A DNA stretch of 64,000 bases from assembly GCF_000175575.2 (NCBI RefSeq), contig NZ_CP005986.1, forward strand, positions 689,549 through 753,548. The letters are read 5' to 3'. How positions within the stretch are numbered: position 1 is the stretch's first letter; every line of letters begins with the position of its first letter. Below are positions 3,170 through 36,138 of this stretch, piece by piece. The stretch comes from Acidithiobacillus caldus ATCC 51756. Lineage in GTDB: Bacteria > Pseudomonadota > Gammaproteobacteria > Acidithiobacillales > Acidithiobacillaceae. A model generated the notes under the pieces. That model was not told the origin of the DNA, searched no databases, and worked only from the letters and a program-made list of their open reading frames with translations. The position numbers and the translations under genes were made by a program.

Positions 3170-5014
3170 CGCAGCTTCTGCCTTGCTCTCCAACATCGCC
3201 CAGCGGGCGTAGGCGGCATCCAGCTCCGCCGCGACGGTCTCGGCCTCTTCCTGAATGCTTTTGAGACGGTCCGGCTCGCGGTAGACATCCGGGTTGGCAA
3301 GTGCGGCGGCAATGCGCTCCTGACGTGCCTCCAGGGCCTCGATCTGTGCCGGCAGTTGCTGGAGTGCCTGCTGCTCACGATAGCTCAGACCCGACTTGCG
3401 CGGCCTATCCCTCTCGCGTGGGGCATTGCGAGCGGGTGTTCCCCTGGTCTCCTCCGCGCGCGACGGGTCGTTCTCCGTCTGCCGCTGCCATTCCTCCCAG
3501 TCGCTATAGCCGCCTGCCATGCCGAGCCAGCGCCCACCGCCGCGGCTCACCAGCACCTGCGTCGCCACCTGGTCGATGAACTCACGGTCGTGTGAAACGA
3601 GAATCACGGTGCCCGGAAAGGTCTGAAGGCGCTCCTCCAGCACTTCGAGGGTCTCCAGATCGAGGTCATTGGTAGGCTCATCCAGAACCAAGAGATTTGC
3701 GGGACGGGCAAAGAGCCTGGCCAGCAGCAGGCGGGCGCGTTCGCCTCCCGAGAGGGCCTTGATGGGTCCGCGAGCGCGACTGGGTGGGAACAGAAAATCT
3801 TGCAGGTAGCTCAGGACATGGCGGCGTTCCCCGCCAATGTCCAAGAAATCGCTGCCATCGGCTACGGCGTCCACGACGCGACTTTCTGGATCGAGTTGGG
3901 CGCGAAACTGGTCGAAATAGGCGATTTCCAGCCGCGTACCGCGACGTACCTGGCCACTGTGCGGGGTCAGCTGTCCCAAAAGCAGGCGCAACAAAGTCGT
4001 CTTGCCGACGCCGTTAGGCCCGATGATACCTAGCCTGTCGCCGCGTTCGATACGAATGGACAGATCCTTGACGATGGGACGATCGTCGTAGGCGAAGGAA
4101 ACCTGGGTCAATTCCGCGACCAGACTGCCGGAACGCTCGGCGGCGGCAATATCCAGGCGTGCTGTGCCAAGCCGCTGGCGCCTTTGCCTGCGCTCATCGC
4201 GCAGACGCTCCAGGCGCCGCAGACGGCCCTGATTGCGCTTGGCCCTCGCCTTGACCCCTTGACGCAACCAGGCCTCTTCCTCGGCCAACTGGCCCTCCAG
4301 GCGCTCTGCCTCCGCCGCTTCCGCTGCAAGCATCTCCTCCTTACGCTTGAGGTAATCGCGGAAGCTGCCGGGAAAGCTGCTGAGCTTGCCGCGATCCAAC
4401 TCGACGATGCGGGTGGCGAGGCGATCGAGAAAGCGCCGATCGTGGGTGATGAACATCAGGGTTCCACGATATCGGGCGAGTGTTCTCTCCAGGGTAGCTA
4501 TACCGGCGAGGTCCAGGTGATTGGTGGGCTCATCCAAAAAAAGCAGATCCGGCTCGCCCATGAGGGCCTGGGCAATGGCCACCCGCTTGCGCTGTCCGCC
4601 CGAGAGCGCGGCGATACGCCCGGACTCCGGCAGGCCCAGTTGATCGCGCAAACTCTCGGCCCGAGCCGAGATGGTCCAGAATTCCGGCTGATCCGCCAGC
4701 TCCATGGCGCTCCCCTGATCCGACTCCGCAAGCTGGTGCAGAGGGTGTCCCACGCGAATGGCGGCCAGCAGATCGACGTCCTCGGGCAGGTCCGGATCCT
4801 GGGCAAGATAGGCGGCATGCAGGCCGGTGGACCAGGAAAGCCGGCCGCCGTCCAGGGGATACAGACCCGCAAGCACCTGCAGCAGGGTGGATTTACCCTC
4901 GCCATTGCGACCGATGAGACCTACCCGTTCACCGGCCTCGAGTACGAGATCGGCGCGATCCAGAAGTGCGCGGCCGCCCCATTCGACCTGACCTTGGTCC
5001 AACTGTAAAACCAT
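3161..5014 (-). CDS. uup: ABC-F ATPase Uup
   Basis: 617 residues with two ABC ATPase domains in tandem and no membrane segments. Domain one has Walker A GRNGEGKST (about residue 36), signature LSGGQ and Walker B LLFLDEPTNHLDL. Domain two has Walker A GPNGVGKTT, signature LSGGE and LLVLDEPTNDLDL. A charged coiled-coil linker separates them, and a lysine/arginine-rich C-terminal coiled coil (from about residue 530) is typical of Uup rather than EttA or YheS. The family acts on ribosomes, and Uup is also implicated in transposon excision. The ATG at 5014 is chosen over a GTG six bases upstream. Confidence 0.92.
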   Translation of the reverse strand: MVLQLDQGQVEWGGRALLDRADLVLEAGERVGLIGRNGEGKSTLLQVLAGLYPLDGGRLSWSTGLHAAYLAQDPDLPEDVDLLAAIRVGHPLHQLAESDQGSAMELADQPEFWTISARAESLRDQLGLPESGRIAALSGGQRKRVAIAQALMGEPDLLFLDEPTNHLDLAGIATLERTLARYRGTLMFITHDRRFLDRLATRIVELDRGKLSSFPGSFRDYLKRKEEMLAAEAAEAERLEGQLAEEEAWLRQGVKARAKRNQGRLRRLERLRDERRQRRQRLGTARLDIAAAERSGSLVAELTQVSFAYDDRPIVKDLSIRIERGDRLGIIGPNGVGKTTLLRLLLGQLTPHSGQVRRGTRLEIAYFDQFRAQLDPESRVVDAVADGSDFLDIGGERRHVLSYLQDFLFPPSRARGPIKALSGGERARLLLARLFARPANLLVLDEPTNDLDLETLEVLEERLQTFPGTVILVSHDREFIDQVATQVLVSRGGGRWLGMAGGYSDWEEWQRQTENDPSRAEETRGTPARNAPRERDRPRKSGLSYREQQALQQLPAQIEALEARQERIAAALANPDVYREPDRLKSIQEEAETVAAELDAAYARWAMLESKAEAASG

Positions 5015-9425: not shown

Positions 9426-9564
9426 AAAAAAAGACGGGCTCAAGAGCCCGTCCAATAGCCGCAAAACAACCGCTACAAAAATCGTGGGGACACTGGCGAA
9501 ACCATCGCCCTTTGTTCCATGCCAAGCCAGACCCCTGTTCAGGTATGGATTTGGTGTCCTATCC
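9426..9564 (-). ncRNA. Candidate small RNA 1 of a tandem trio
   Basis: Read on the minus strand, a -10-like hexamer TACTTT (9576-9571) lies 7 bp after a direct-repeat box. About 110 nt later comes the conserved block TTGTTTTGCGGCTATTG. It leads straight into a perfect 8-bp hairpin GACGGGCT-CTTG-AGCCCGTC and seven U residues, a textbook intrinsic terminator (9426-9452). The same block and terminator recur in candidates 2 and 3, while the 5' parts differ. There is no credible ORF. The start position is estimated from the -10 and could shift about 5 nt. An alternative -10 (TATAGC) lies 5 bp downstream. Confidence 0.6.
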
Positions 9565-9583
9565 AGCTATAAAGTACTCCCCG

Positions 9584-9610
9584 AATATTTCCGGATTATT
9601 TCAGAACGAT
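9584..9610 (-). promoter_or_regulatory. Direct-repeat activator box, copy 1
   Basis: On the plus strand TTTCCGGATTA is followed by TTTCAGAACGA, so the TTTC cores are exactly 11 bp apart, the spacing used by OmpR/PhoB-family dimers. Read on the minus strand it is CTGAAATAAT then CCGGAAATAT, placed 7 bp before the -10-like TACTTT of candidate small RNA 1. Confidence 0.5.
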
Positions 9611-9636
9611 CGCTTTCTGGATTCCTCCAGACCAAG

Positions 9637-9774
9637 AAAAAAAGACGGGCTAGAGAGCCCGTCCAATAGCCGCAAAACAACCGCTAAATCTGCTGGGTTC
9701 TGGCTCGAATCTTCGGCCGCACCTATGTCTGTCGCTCCATCACATTTTGAGGTTTGGGTCACTAAGCTTCATTG
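9637..9774 (-). ncRNA. Candidate small RNA 2 of a tandem trio
   Basis: Same architecture as candidate 1. A -10-like CATACT (9786-9781) follows the box at 9794-9816, then about 90 nt of unique sequence, the block GCGGTTGTTTTGCGGCTATT, and the hairpin GACGGGCT-CTCT-AGCCCGTC followed by seven U. The stem sequence is identical to that of candidate 1 while the loop differs, and 22 bp beyond the stem are conserved. A ten-codon ORF in the 5' part is probably chance. Confidence 0.6.
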
Positions 9775-9793
9775 CGTTGCAGTATGCTGGATT

Positions 9794-9820
9794 AATGTTT
9801 CCAGAATATTTCAGGGTGGT
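9794..9820 (-). promoter_or_regulatory. Direct-repeat activator box, copy 2
   Basis: Plus-strand units TTTCCAGAATA and TTTCAGGGTGG have TTTC cores at 9798 and 9809, again exactly 11 bp apart. On the minus strand CTGAAATATT then CTGGAAACAT precede the CATACT -10 of candidate small RNA 2 by 7 bp. Confidence 0.5.
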
Positions 9821-9982
9821 TGGAATCGATGGGAGTACGAATGCCGTCGCGCTGCTTGCCGCTTCGCCAAGGATGCTGCTGCGGACCAGAGACGAACTGG
9901 CGTCTGCGGGGGAGTGTGCAGTAGGTGCAGCATGTAAGCACCATCTGAGGCTGCGGGCTTGTCTCGGCTCTGTGGCGGTCAC

Positions 9983-10076
9983 AAAAAAGTGACGGGCACG
10001 AGGCCCGTCCAATAGCCGCAAAACAACGAGAACCGCGTCGAAGAGCGCCACAAACGACCCCCTACCGAACGCGAAT
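9983..10076 (-). ncRNA. Candidate small RNA 3 of a tandem trio
   Basis: A -10-like AATAAT (10088-10083) sits 7 bp from the box at 10096-10118. The transcript would be about 94 nt with a short unique 5' part, the shared block GTTGTTTTGCGGCTATTG, and a terminator GACGGGC-CTCGT-GCCCGTC. An AC separates that stem from a six-U tract. The stem is one pair shorter than in the other two copies, yet pairing is preserved. It lies head-to-head with the response regulator gene at 10144. Confidence 0.57.
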
Positions 10077-10095
10077 GGCTGGATTATTGCCGAGA

Positions 10096-10122
10096 ATTGT
10101 TTCAGAATTATTTCCAGATTCA
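10096..10122 (-). promoter_or_regulatory. Direct-repeat activator box, copy 3, shared with the response regulator gene
   Basis: Plus-strand units TTTCAGAATTA and TTTCCAGATTC have cores at 10100 and 10111 (11 bp apart). The minus strand reads CTGGAAATAA then CTGAAACAAT, 7 bp before AATAAT. On the other side the response regulator start codon is only about 26 bp away, so a protein bound here would cover that gene's promoter region too. Confidence 0.5.
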
Positions 10123-10143: not shown

Positions 10144-10887
10144 GTGGCCGTGGTGCTCATCGTCGACGATGACCAAAGACTGGCGGCTCTGCTGCAGGAC
10201 TTTCTGCAGGCCGAGGGCATGGTGGTGCGCACCGCCAGTAACGGCCGGGAGATGTGGCAGCAACTGGCGGCCGAACCCGTCGACGTGGTGGTGATGGACT
10301 GGATGTTGCCGGGAGGGCAGGACGGCATCAGCCTAGTTCGGGAACTTCGGGCCAAATCCGGTCCGCCCATCCTCATGCTGTCGGCCAGGGGTGAGGAAGA
10401 GGAACGTATCCACGGCCTCGAGAGCGGGGTGGAGGACTATCTTGCCAAGCCTTTCAACGCCCGTGAGTTGCTGGCGCGCCTGCGAGTCCTGTTGCGTCGT
10501 GCAGGTCGCGGCGACTCCGGAAGGGTGCTGCACTTCGGTCCCTTCGTGCTGGACCTGGTTGAGAGGCGGCTGTTCCGTGAGGGTGAGGTCGTGGAACTCA
10601 GTCCGGCGGAGATGGACCTTTTGTTGGTTTTTGCCCAACGACCCAATCGTGCGCTGAGCCGAGACCACCTCTTGCAAGCCTTGGGCGGAGACGATGACGG
10701 TCGTTTTGACCGGAGCATCGATGTGCGGGTGACACGACTGCGCAAACTCATCGAAGAAAATCCGCGCCAACCGCGGTTTCTGCGCACGGAACGGGGAGTG
10801 GGTTATCGCTTCGTGCCCAGGGAAAACGAAGGCGGCACGGGGCTTAAATCTTCTGCCGGCGATATCCCCCGGGACATCGCCGGCTGA
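10144..10887 (+). CDS. Orphan OmpR/PhoB-family response regulator
   Basis: 247 residues from a GTG preceded by AAGGAG. The receiver domain has the acidic pair in VLIVDDDQRL, the phospho-acceptor aspartate in VVVMDWMLP (about residue 53), the conserved Thr/Ser position LMLSARG and the lysine in AKPFN. A winged-helix DNA-binding domain follows (LSPAEMDLLLVFAQ, RSIDVRVTRLRKLIEEN, FLRTERGVGYRF). No histidine kinase gene is next to it. Upstream lies a direct-repeat box of OmpR-family spacing; two more precede the neighbouring small RNA candidates. Autoregulation and control of those RNAs is the natural inference but is unproven. The gene is convergent with the TonB-receptor operon. Confidence 0.92.
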   Translation: MAVVLIVDDDQRLAALLQDFLQAEGMVVRTASNGREMWQQLAAEPVDVVVMDWMLPGGQDGISLVRELRAKSGPPILMLSARGEEEERIHGLESGVEDYLAKPFNARELLARLRVLLRRAGRGDSGRVLHFGPFVLDLVERRLFREGEVVELSPAEMDLLLVFAQRPNRALSRDHLLQALGGDDDGRFDRSIDVRVTRLRKLIEENPRQPRFLRTERGVGYRFVPRENEGGTGLKSSAGDIPRDIAG

Positions 10888-10901: not shown

Positions 10902-13124
10902 TCAGAAGCTTGCCGTCACACTGCCGTAGAACGAGCGCGGCGCCTGGAAGTTGAAGGTGTCGCTGGGCGAGGGTTGCGGGCCCTTGACCTTGGCCTGGTA
11001 CACCCCACGCTCATCCGTCAGGTTGTAGATATCGAAGCCGAGCCGCAGGTTTTTGATCATCGGCGTGGGTGGGACGATGTCGTAACCCAGTTTGAGGTCC
11101 ACGTTATTCAGGGCGGGGAGAGGATACTGAGCATCGTCCCGGACATACTGGCGTCCAGTGCGCTTGTAGACGAGGGCAAAGTGGTAAGGTTTGGCATCGT
11201 AAAGGACCGCCGCCGCTGCCGTGTACAGGGGCGCGGCGGAAATGGTCTTGTTCGTCTCCTTGGATTTGGCGCTGTTGATGGAGCCATTGGCGTAGAGTGC
11301 CAGACCGTTGCCTAGGGCATAGGTGACCTCGCCCTCCACCCCTTTGTAGATCACCCCGCCCTGGTTGTAGTAATACGGGTCGCTCAGAGGAGAGTTGGGA
11401 TCTATGGCGTAGCGGTTGTTGAAGTCGATGTAGTACACATCGGCATCCCAGACCCAGTGTTCGGACTGGTGATTGAAGCCCACTTGGTAATTGGTGGTGG
11501 TTTCGGGATTCAAGCGATTTTTTTCACCATTGGCCGTCTGGAGAACGTCCAGGGGAGGAGCCAGGAATCCTTTGGCAAACTGCAGGTAGGCGGAATTTTC
11601 CTTGTCGAGGCGGTAATTGACTGTCAGGAAAGGTAGGGTGCTGTGATAGCTCTGGGAATAGAAAGCCGGCAGGCGTGATTTCTGATTGATGAGGGCGCTC
11701 ATGCTCCGGGTGAAGCGTATGTACTTGACGCCGGGTGTGACGGTCAAGGATTCCGTGGGCCGCCAGGCAAACTGGGCAAAGGGCTGAAGGTTGCGTGTGC
11801 CCGAATGCTGATCGAACTGTACGTTGTTGATTCCGCTAATAATGCCAGGAACGGCCTTCTGATCGAAATTGGGTGCTCCCGTCAGCAGGTCGTAATCCAC
11901 GCGTCCGCGCTGGGTGGCACCCGTTTCGACCCAAAGACCTGCCGTGGCACGGCCAAAGGACCAGTCTTTGTTCAGACGCAGGATATTACCCACGAGCCAA
12001 TAGCCGTTGAGTTTGTCGTATCCTGGTATACCCTGAACCTTTTTTCCGTTGGCGAGGACGACACTGCTCAAGCCCGCCAACGGATCCTTGCTGGAACTGG
12101 ATAGGGTACTATTGTGGTAGAAGTAATAATAGACCGAGTTGTCCAGAGAAAAGCCCTCGGCAAGCGCGCTCTGCACGCGAATATAACTGAAGCCCGTGTG
12201 CTTTTCCGTACGATTGTAGGCGTAATAATTGGCCAGAAGCGGGTTATCCCCCAGAGCAAAATCCTTGCCATAACGTAAAGCCTGCGACTCGGTGAGCTGG
12301 CCTTTGGTAGCATCGGATTGGTAGTAGGTGTTCCAGTTGAATGTGCTCAAGAGCGTGACCAGGGTACTTTCACCCAGGGGCACAAACATTTTGAACAGGA
12401 CGTTGTCGCCTTTGACGGGGGAAAAGGTCTGATAGCCGTCGCTGCTCTTGTGCTGGTAATTGACGAGATAACGTGCACCACCCGGCCAGGGCAGGGCACC
12501 ACTGTTGGCACGAGCCTTGAATAGCAGAGTATTGTTGGAACCGTAAAGGAATCCCAGCTTGCCGGAGGCCTTGGCGCTGGGGTCCGGGGAGAAGAGATTG
12601 ACGGAGCCGCCGAAGGTGGCGTAACCCAAATTGTCGGCGTTGCCGGGGCCGCGCTCGACGACGACACGATCGATGGTGGAAGCGGGAAAATACGCCGTGG
12701 AATGGTGCGTGAAATCGTTGGTATCGCCGAAGGGGATACCGTCGTAGGTCATGTTGAACTCACCATCACTAAAACCGCGAAGGTTCAGTTTGGATTCGCC
12801 GACACCCGGACCGTTACTGTTGAAGCCGCCGGATACGCCCGGAGCGAGGTTGGCAATCTGGTTGAAATCCGCATCGCCCATCACGGCGTTTTCGATGTAG
12901 TGGGAATCCAGGACGGTGGTGGGCTCCGTGGCCGATAGGGGCGACTTGCCCGGGGCCAGTGCCGGAGCGCTCTGGGGCCCATAGCTTTGGGTCGAGCCTC
13001 CGGCGTCGGCGGAGCCCGCTTCGGCGGCGGTCACCGTGCCCAGGGAGTCGGCGGCATGGGCCATTCCCGGGGCCAGCGCGATCAGGACGGCGATCTGCAA
13101 GGTTTTGACGGTATGAGAAAACAC
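10902..13124 (-). CDS. TonB-dependent outer-membrane receptor (distal gene of the cluster)
   Basis: 740 residues from a GTG with an AGGAG ribosome site. A 23-residue signal peptide ends in MAHA, followed by ADSLGTVT. The plug domain (about residues 75-190) contains LRGFSDGEFNMTYDGIPFGD and VERGPG, then a 22-strand barrel ends in Phe (GSVTASF). The upstream ATG at 13169 overlaps tonB and lacks a ribosome site, so it was not chosen. It is the last gene of the exbB-exbD-phosphoesterase-tonB cluster. The ligand cannot be told from sequence; operon context suggests a phosphate ester or its metal complex. Confidence 0.9.
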   Translation of the reverse strand: MFSHTVKTLQIAVLIALAPGMAHAADSLGTVTAAEAGSADAGGSTQSYGPQSAPALAPGKSPLSATEPTTVLDSHYIENAVMGDADFNQIANLAPGVSGGFNSNGPGVGESKLNLRGFSDGEFNMTYDGIPFGDTNDFTHHSTAYFPASTIDRVVVERGPGNADNLGYATFGGSVNLFSPDPSAKASGKLGFLYGSNNTLLFKARANSGALPWPGGARYLVNYQHKSSDGYQTFSPVKGDNVLFKMFVPLGESTLVTLLSTFNWNTYYQSDATKGQLTESQALRYGKDFALGDNPLLANYYAYNRTEKHTGFSYIRVQSALAEGFSLDNSVYYYFYHNSTLSSSSKDPLAGLSSVVLANGKKVQGIPGYDKLNGYWLVGNILRLNKDWSFGRATAGLWVETGATQRGRVDYDLLTGAPNFDQKAVPGIISGINNVQFDQHSGTRNLQPFAQFAWRPTESLTVTPGVKYIRFTRSMSALINQKSRLPAFYSQSYHSTLPFLTVNYRLDKENSAYLQFAKGFLAPPLDVLQTANGEKNRLNPETTTNYQVGFNHQSEHWVWDADVYYIDFNNRYAIDPNSPLSDPYYYNQGGVIYKGVEGEVTYALGNGLALYANGSINSAKSKETNKTISAAPLYTAAAAVLYDAKPYHFALVYKRTGRQYVRDDAQYPLPALNNVDLKLGYDIVPPTPMIKNLRLGFDIYNLTDERGVYQAKVKGPQPSPSDTFNFQAPRSFYGSVTASF

Positions 13125-13161
13125 GGTTGACGCTCCTTTTGCTCCATAGGCAAAAATGGGT

Positions 13162-13881
13162 TTAGTCATTGCGCAGTACGAATTCCACTTCCACATCGAA
13201 GCTGAAGTTTTCGTTTTTGAGCTCGGCGGGGGTGGGTGGCATCCGCGCGTCCCGAACCGCCGCAAGGGCTGCGCTATCGAAGGCTTCGAGACTACCCTTG
13301 CGCACGATGTAGGCGCGGGACACCACCCCGTTGCGCAGATCGAAATGCACCAGTACCCGCCCCTGCTCGCCCAGCATCCGCGCCGCTTCGGGATAGCGCA
13401 CCGCCGCTTGGATTGCGCCTTTGACCAAAGCGCGGTAGTCCGCCTTCACCGCGGGGTTGGCGGGCGGTGCCGGAGGTGGCGGCGGTGTCTGCGGCACGGG
13501 CTGGGGCGGCGGCGCCTGTACCGGACTGGGCAGGGGGCTCGGCGGCAGGGCCTCGCGTACGGGCTTGGGCGCTGGTTCCGGTTTGGGTGTGGGCCTTGGC
13601 ACCGGCTTTGGCGTTGGCTTCGGAACCGGCTTGGGCGTGGGTTTGGGCGGCGTCGGTGTCGGCTTGGGGGGTGGCGGCGCCGGTGGCAGGGGCTTGGGTT
13701 CCTGCACGAGTTCCAGCTGCATGGGCGGCATGGCGGCGGGCGGTGGGGTAGAGCTCTGCGCCTGCCATAGCGCCAGGCCCAGCAGAGTGGCTTCCGCCAG
13801 AATGGCCAGTATCCAGGCTTTTCTCTGAGTTTGGGGCTCGGCGCGAAGCTCCGTCCCAAGCTCACGAAAATCGATATCCAC
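13162..13881 (-). CDS. tonB: TonB energy transducer
   Basis: 239 residues. One N-terminal transmembrane helix (about residues 23-40) is followed by a very long Pro-Lys/Pro-Thr rich periplasmic linker (about residues 55-145, many PKPTP repeats). The C-terminal TonB domain contains the YP motif (AAVRYPEAARMLGEQGRVLVHFDL). It couples the proton motive force, through ExbB-ExbD, to the two receptors in the same cluster. It lies 3 nt after the phosphoesterase gene stop. Confidence 0.93.
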   Translation of the reverse strand: MDIDFRELGTELRAEPQTQRKAWILAILAEATLLGLALWQAQSSTPPPAAMPPMQLELVQEPKPLPPAPPPPKPTPTPPKPTPKPVPKPTPKPVPRPTPKPEPAPKPVREALPPSPLPSPVQAPPPQPVPQTPPPPPAPPANPAVKADYRALVKGAIQAAVRYPEAARMLGEQGRVLVHFDLRNGVVSRAYIVRKGSLEAFDSAALAAVRDARMPPTPAELKNENFSFDVEVEFVLRND

Positions 13882-35952: not shown

Positions 35953-36138
35953 AAGATGCTCCCTGCGGGGCACGTGTGGCCGAGATGATTCCTGAACCAA
36001 CATTGTCTATCCAGGGGATCCTCAGTCATCACCGCGGTGTGCCGCTCTTTTGCGGAGTAGCCTGAAGCGGTGTGTGGATTCCCACCTGAACATCAGGTTC
36101 CTGGGATAGCGGGCCGCACGACCCAGGCGGGGAGTCTT
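35953..36138 (+). ncRNA. ssrS: 6S RNA
   Basis: About 186 nt between zapA and the 5-FCL gene, the usual location. The ends pair (AAGA with TCTT, CTCCC with GGGAG). Inside them CGTGTGGCC pairs with GGCCGCACG, flanking a large central bubble. The 3' half contains CACCTGAACATCAGGTTCC, closely resembling the E. coli 6S segment CACCTTGAACCAAGGGTTC. It mimics an open promoter and sequesters sigma70 RNA polymerase in stationary phase. Ends are approximate. Confidence 0.88.

Follow-up and report, generated by a model that had tools for sequence, protein, structure and literature searches.

We detected three putative small RNA (sRNA) genes in tandem on the minus strand of the window (the whole 64,000-nucleotide stretch analyzed here, G000:C1:689549-753548, from a 2.99 Mb genome in four contigs), with the gene of an OmpR-family response regulator lying divergently on the plus strand beside the third of them. 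The RNAs were recognized from promoter, terminator, and conservation rather than from transcripts, and their 5' ends are estimates: RNA1 covers about 139 nt (9426..9564), RNA2 about 138 nt (9637..9774), and RNA3, of a shorter regulator-proximal type, about 94 nt (9983..10076). All three have a terminator, a shared 3' module, and a place in the family alignment, and RNA1 and RNA3 also have predicted folds with z scores of -2.8 and -2.3 against shuffled sequences, though RNA2 folded no better than its shuffles (z only -0.89). Each gene is preceded on the same strand by a 17-bp box: box 1, GAAATAATCCGGAAATA, at 9586..9602; box 2, GAAATATTCTGGAAACA, at 9796..9812; and box 3, GAAATAATTCTGAAACA, at 10098..10114. 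On the RNA strand, each box is a GAAAYA-N5-GAAAYA direct repeat with an 11-bp period, summarized by the general pattern GAAAYANTYNNGAAAYA. The original prediction had placed pairs of TTTC cores at 9588/9599, 9798/9809, and 10100/10111, and we found all of them at those positions with the same 11-bp period. The regulator gene itself occupies 10144..10887.

Strong intrinsic terminators end RNA1, RNA2, and RNA3, with stems on the minus strand at 9432..9453, 9643..9664, and 9991..10009, respectively, each called by prediction and family covariation, and the last ~50 nt are common to all three RNAs. Directly before the terminator lies a 16-nt core, UUGUUUUGCGGCUAUU, marked by family conservation and found on the minus strand at 9454..9469 in RNA1, at 9665..9680 in RNA2, and at 10011..10026 in RNA3 (TTGTTTTGCGGCTATT). 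This core is invariant in the 30 aligned 3' ends, which were taken from 35 distinct 3' ends, and in the same alignment the terminator stem has changes on both sides at 4 of its 7 pairs with 99.5% of cells paired. Invariance outside the stem together with covariation inside it suggests that the core has a binding partner, which would be a protein or an mRNA. Most long members also keep a second block, GUACCCAAAC...GGAGCG, that the short regulator-proximal ones lack, and the differences in length among members, read from the alignment rather than scored, make a coding role unlikely. The shared RNA pattern matches records of Acidithiobacillus and Igneacidithiobacillus species. An Rfam search of the window gave no match at the sRNA positions at gathering score, returning only 6S RNA (35957-36137 on the plus strand; RF00013, 72.8 bits) and two tRNAs, and we found no description of these RNAs in the literature on small or regulatory RNA of Acidithiobacillus and on its OmpR systems; according to PMC13029372, no Csr-family sRNA has been found in A. 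caldus. Judged by sequence, RNA1–RNA3 are sibling members of a new sRNA family, placed in a known kind of circuit. The usual distance between copies is ~0.2 kb; in one relative (G015, locus L088), the two copies, at 4446 and 8931, are 4.5 kb apart, as though an insertion had separated them.

A genome-wide search for the repeat had been proposed with the original prediction, and it confirmed how restricted the boxes are: GAAAYANTYNNGAAAYA had three exact matches in the genome, all at the array, and one further place when one mismatch was allowed, compared with none and three, respectively, for a reversed-pattern control. Across the 29 family genomes there were 57 exact matches, spread over 28 genomes, and a single match to the control. 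Fifty-one of the 57 preceded the shared RNA 3' module by 40-260 bp and were on its strand, and two more, in G013 and G016, adjoined the regulator without being among the 51. The other four were opposite a predicted ORF (two), in an iteron-like repeat (one), and upstream of a small ORF (one); we considered them as extra regulon members and rejected them as chance-like on reading, none being a clear promoter of a conserved gene. The boxes are likely to be an operator, one that all sRNA promoters keep and that hardly occurs at other places in these 29 genomes.

The spacing of the boxes from the putative promoters is also regular. Candidate -10 hexamers on the minus strand are AATAAT for RNA3 (10083..10088) and CATACT for RNA2 (9781..9786), starting 9 bp after box 3 and box 2, respectively, and TTTATA for RNA1 (9568..9573), for which an alternative, TACTTT (9571-9576), has the usual spacing. 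In 34 of 50 family RNAs (the distinct RNAs with an exact box and a recognizable module, which made up the spacing and alignment set), the highest-scoring -10-like hexamer begins 9 bp beyond the 17-mer; the mean score was 4.7 compared with 1.7 in shuffles. The distance of ~7 bp claimed earlier agrees with this value, having been taken from a slightly longer box. We found no sigma-70 promoter with a -35 at the array, where a -10 is present with no recognized -35, as is expected of activator-dependent promoters.

The regulator has a receiver domain (PF00072, 104 bits) and a winged-helix DNA-binding domain (PF00486, Trans_reg_C, 81 bits), both above cut-off. Its N-terminus, MAVVLIVDDD, is kept in 24 family orthologues (one with L for I), which fixes the start at the GTG at 10144 and places box 3 at 29 bp from the start codon. 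The description of a divergent OmpR/PhoB-family regulator next to box 3, where the distance first given was 26 bp, holds. The narrower assignment to the PhoB type does not hold: the best of 82 models was NCBIfam OmpR (PRK09468, 221.4 bits, below its curated cut-off of 331), ahead of PhoB (TIGR02154, 184.2 bits, below its curated cut-off of 296). The pho box of PhoB is of the CTGTCAT type; none of the three boxes in the window contains this sequence, their halves being GAAAYA, and we dropped the PhoB assignment on both motif and model scores. Of 25 family genomes, 24 yielded an orthologue of the regulator, the exception being G019, which is 61% complete, and the family regulators form one group in a tree (support 84/97) that left out G034, G017, and the genome's own 216k paralogue. 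A second OmpR-family regulator is encoded at G000:C1:216065-216745 and G000:C2:98141-98821 as two identical protein copies with no kinase listed nearby. On the other side of the regulator gene in the window, ORFs for a TonB-dependent receptor (10902-13265) and a TonB-like protein (13162-13881), both on the minus strand, adjoin it, and their predicted frames overlap by ~100 bp.

The association between box and regulator extends across the family. An exact box lies at most 160 bp from the regulator start in 22 of the 24 orthologue loci, and a box-like repeat, degenerate in some, lies within ~100 bp of the start in all 24. The repeats in G003 and G006 are degenerate and sit at the regulator start codon, 1.1-1.3 kb from the array. 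In these two genomes and in G009, G015, and G017, the repeat stands beside the regulator with no exact-box RNA promoter adjacent. The boxes beside the regulator, those of these five genomes included, point away from the regulator gene. Going by this proximity, the regulator likely contacts its own promoter through the nearby box; since box 3 faces away from the gene, activation, repression, and no autoregulation at all are each possible outcomes.

Nothing in the window beside the regulator encodes a kinase, as had been stated, and we detected an EnvZ-like kinase gene standing alone at G000:C1:926573-927892, ~227 kb from the regulator, with no response-regulator domain near its kinase domain (C1:927563) in the domain list of the genome. 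Among 37 models, its best full-length match was NCBIfam EnvZ (PRK09467; 177 bits over residues 11-440, below the cut-off of 415). The orthologue of this kinase lies directly downstream of the regulator in 13 of 13 genomes examined from the sister genus g2 and in G006 of g3; G003 was not counted, as its regulator gene is cut off by the contig end. Kinase and regulator are apart in both g1 genomes and all seven g4 genomes that have the two genes (on different contigs in drafts). The synteny in g2 means that the pair was either split in the lineage studied here or joined in the other, and it names the partner in both cases. It also rules out true orphan status for the regulator. The family kinases form one group in a tree (support 91/93) that left out G001 and the genome's own 488k paralogue. 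The trees did not settle the placement of the regulator–kinase pairs that are the best matches in outgroups, and an identity of these pairs as ancestral orthologues is suggestive only. In two of the outgroups, G025 (L204) and G034 (L207), the OmpR-like regulator has no sRNAs but a small gene divergent from it, whose product resembles, as judged by eye, a Spy/CpxP-type (LTxxQ) periplasmic protein, and in G035 (L205), GAAACA-N5-GAAACA repeats precede the regulator.

Complements of 14 nt of the core with up to two mismatches were not enriched in the genome (13 places, three of them the array itself, vs 23 for the control). We followed these places up only because one of them, at ccsB, coincided with a Shine-Dalgarno sequence in both members of the genus. 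The gene encodes a cytochrome c biogenesis/maturation protein (TIGR03144, 236 bits, cut-off 188), and an 11-nt perfect match, UUGUUUUGCGG/CCGCAAAACAA, abuts its Shine-Dalgarno sequence in G000 and G001, the site CCGCAAAACAA lying just upstream of it. Within -40..+15, all eight g1 and g4 orthologues could pair with the core in a contiguous Watson-Crick helix of 8 bp or more, compared with 3/369, 4/414, and 2/376 sampled gene starts, helix length being a post-hoc measure that we tried after duplex energy. Duplex energy did not single out ccsB (ranks 51/369, 33/414, and 44/376), and we rejected it as a ranking of targets because it does not discriminate in a G+C-rich genome. Backgrounds for both measures came from three genomes, 20 stretches of 20 kb apiece, in which gene starts were estimated from a Shine-Dalgarno score. 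The site changes outside g1 and g4: the six g2 orthologues all reach a Watson-Crick run of only 5, although an 11-bp helix with two G-U pairs is possible in each (6/6 vs 1/414 in the sample), and in g3, the site is weak, with a run of 7 in both. Several g2 genomes have the sRNAs and no close ccsB orthologue, and 14 CcsB-like paralogue loci (one of them a fragment) have no core site near the start. The genome encodes Hfq (PF17209, 101 bits). We put forward ccsB mRNA as a tentative candidate for one target of the sRNAs, which might block it beside the Shine-Dalgarno sequence, and we hold this with less than even confidence.

The boxes, their spacing, the RNA family, its near-exclusive linkage to the repeat, and the kinase synteny are all directly visible in the genomes. 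We consider it quite probable, on this comparative footing, that a dedicated two-component system activates the three sibling sRNAs of this locus through the repeat boxes, and the family-wide layout suggests that this is a dedicated stress circuit working by way of RNA. For binding, activation, phosphotransfer, and base-pairing, we infer the following course. The EnvZ-like membrane kinase would phosphorylate the OmpR-like regulator, which would bind the 11-bp-period repeats head-to-tail as a dimer and recruit RNA polymerase at three sRNA promoters that have a -10 only. The three sibling sRNAs would be made as a gene-dosage set, and their core would act by base-pairing, probably with Hfq. The position of box 3, in the space that RNA3 shares with the regulator gene, makes it probable that the regulator contacts its own promoter as well. 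A weaker, added step would be the block of ccsB mRNA next to its Shine-Dalgarno sequence. Our best model is thus a dedicated two-component system activating one to three redundant sRNAs, by analogy with the streptococcal CiaR-csRNAs. The original prediction of a closed circuit of one regulator and three RNAs survives in part, in its divergent regulator and in a likely operator nearly exclusive to the array, and loses its PhoB-like and orphan features. A fuller version seems rather unlikely to us as a whole: the two-component system would have lost its protein-gene targets and would speak only via tandem, self-linked sRNAs that tune cytochrome c maturation (ccsB), and mobile elements in these hosts would carry the 3' core, placed behind genes of their own, as decoys or mimics.

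Another OmpR-family protein could be the actual binder of the boxes, since the genome has nine Trans_reg_C matches, and the published OmpR comes to mind above all. The main rival explanation holds that the boxes belong to the paralogous EnvZ-OmpR pair (C1:62 kb), that the neighboring regulator is a passenger, and that the sRNAs are equivalents of OmrA/OmrB. OmpR half-sites do resemble the GAAAYA halves of the boxes. The published protein is, moreover, active in A. caldus, where the available part of PMC9861516 presents EnvZ-OmpR as an osmotic regulator, but the OmpR boxes given there do not look like these (GTTACA/GTAACA at tetH), no exact box occurs elsewhere in the genome, and a box, degenerate in some cases, stays beside the present regulator in all 24 orthologue loci. 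We regard this rival as decidedly unlikely. The published protein is not the one encoded beside the array: of five ompR primers published for A. caldus MTH-04, three match the C1:62 kb paralogue exactly and none matches this regulator. These exact matches also place the host in A. caldus or very close to it. The published pair (C1:61-62 kb) shares the superfamily and the species group with the pair proposed here and, as far as the available part of PMC9861516 goes, differs in genes, boxes, and targets.

If the boxes served constitutive sRNA expression instead, as a -35 or UP-like element and not as a regulator site, the equal distance of most box copies from the -10 would be explained, but one would not expect a near-unique 11-bp repeat to be common to constitutive promoters, nor would the repeat be kept beside the regulator in G003, G006, G009, G015, and G017, which have no exact-box RNA promoter there; we give this explanation hardly any probability. 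It is also very unlikely, in our judgment, that the sRNAs sequester CsrA/RsmA in the manner of CsrB/RsmZ, under a GacA-like logic, instead of pairing with mRNAs. RNAs that act as CsrA sponges have numerous GGA loops, and multiple GGA loops were not seen, by eye, in the array RNAs. Most members have a single conserved GGA block (GGAGCG), as read by eye from the alignments and not scored, and outside g1, the GGA at the base of the terminator is replaced by AGA in the majority of members. In favor of this rival, the GacA-RsmY/Z pattern is likewise that of a regulator dedicated to redundant sRNAs (PMC4866733, available part). The dedicated two-component system with pairing sRNAs is the reading that we retain.

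This model shares features with several known circuits. GacA lies outside the OmpR family, and RsmY/Z act by sequestering RsmA and are not known to pair with mRNAs; many protein-coding genes are targets of OmpR, and omrAB is not known to adjoin ompR. The array is like GacA-RsmY/RsmZ in its near-exclusive operator and in having redundant sRNAs as targets, GacA being reported to control almost only RsmY and RsmZ directly (PMC4866733, in the part available), and it is like the OmpR-OmrA/OmrB system of enterobacteria in combining an OmpR-type regulator with twin sRNAs (PMC12692685, likewise). In streptococci, according to the available part of PMC3091779, CiaR controls 15 promoters, and its sites are TTTAAG-N5-TTTAAG repeats with an 11-bp period, ~10 nt from a TATAAT-like -10; the csRNAs are similar to each other, end in intrinsic terminators, and have unpaired regions complementary to Shine-Dalgarno sites. 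Compared with that account, the array has the same 11-bp direct repeat, fixed distance to the -10 (34/50), similar RNAs, and intrinsic terminators, and it differs in phylum and motif, in the near confinement of the motif to sRNAs, and in having its genes in tandem and divergent from the regulator. If true, our model would make the locus an independent counterpart of the CiaR-csRNA design, in a phylum far from that of the streptococci and in an acid-loving sulfur bacterium used industrially for bioleaching. The near-exclusive operator makes the idea of a response regulator acting only through sRNAs directly testable, and the regulator, kinase, operator, and RNA set to which the locus leads could be tested in a species with a published markerless knockout method (PMC9861516, available part).

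The invariant 16-nt core, found also behind mobile-element-like genes, offers a second testable question. A plasmid search with the core-terminator module gave weak matches only (E 0.2-0.8). We observed the core within GCGGTTGTTTTGCGGCTATT shortly after genes in six loci of relatives, judged by eye to be mobile-element-like: L074 (3378-3402), L075 (3556-3584), L076 (3202-3232), L077 (3369-3391), L078 (3597-3646), and L079 (782-806, with one mismatch). At these loci, the core might serve as a decoy, mimic the sRNAs from a 3' UTR, or be a site for a shared RNA chaperone. In L074 and L075, it follows ssb-like genes, and in all six loci, it is joined to terminator hairpins of unrelated sequence.
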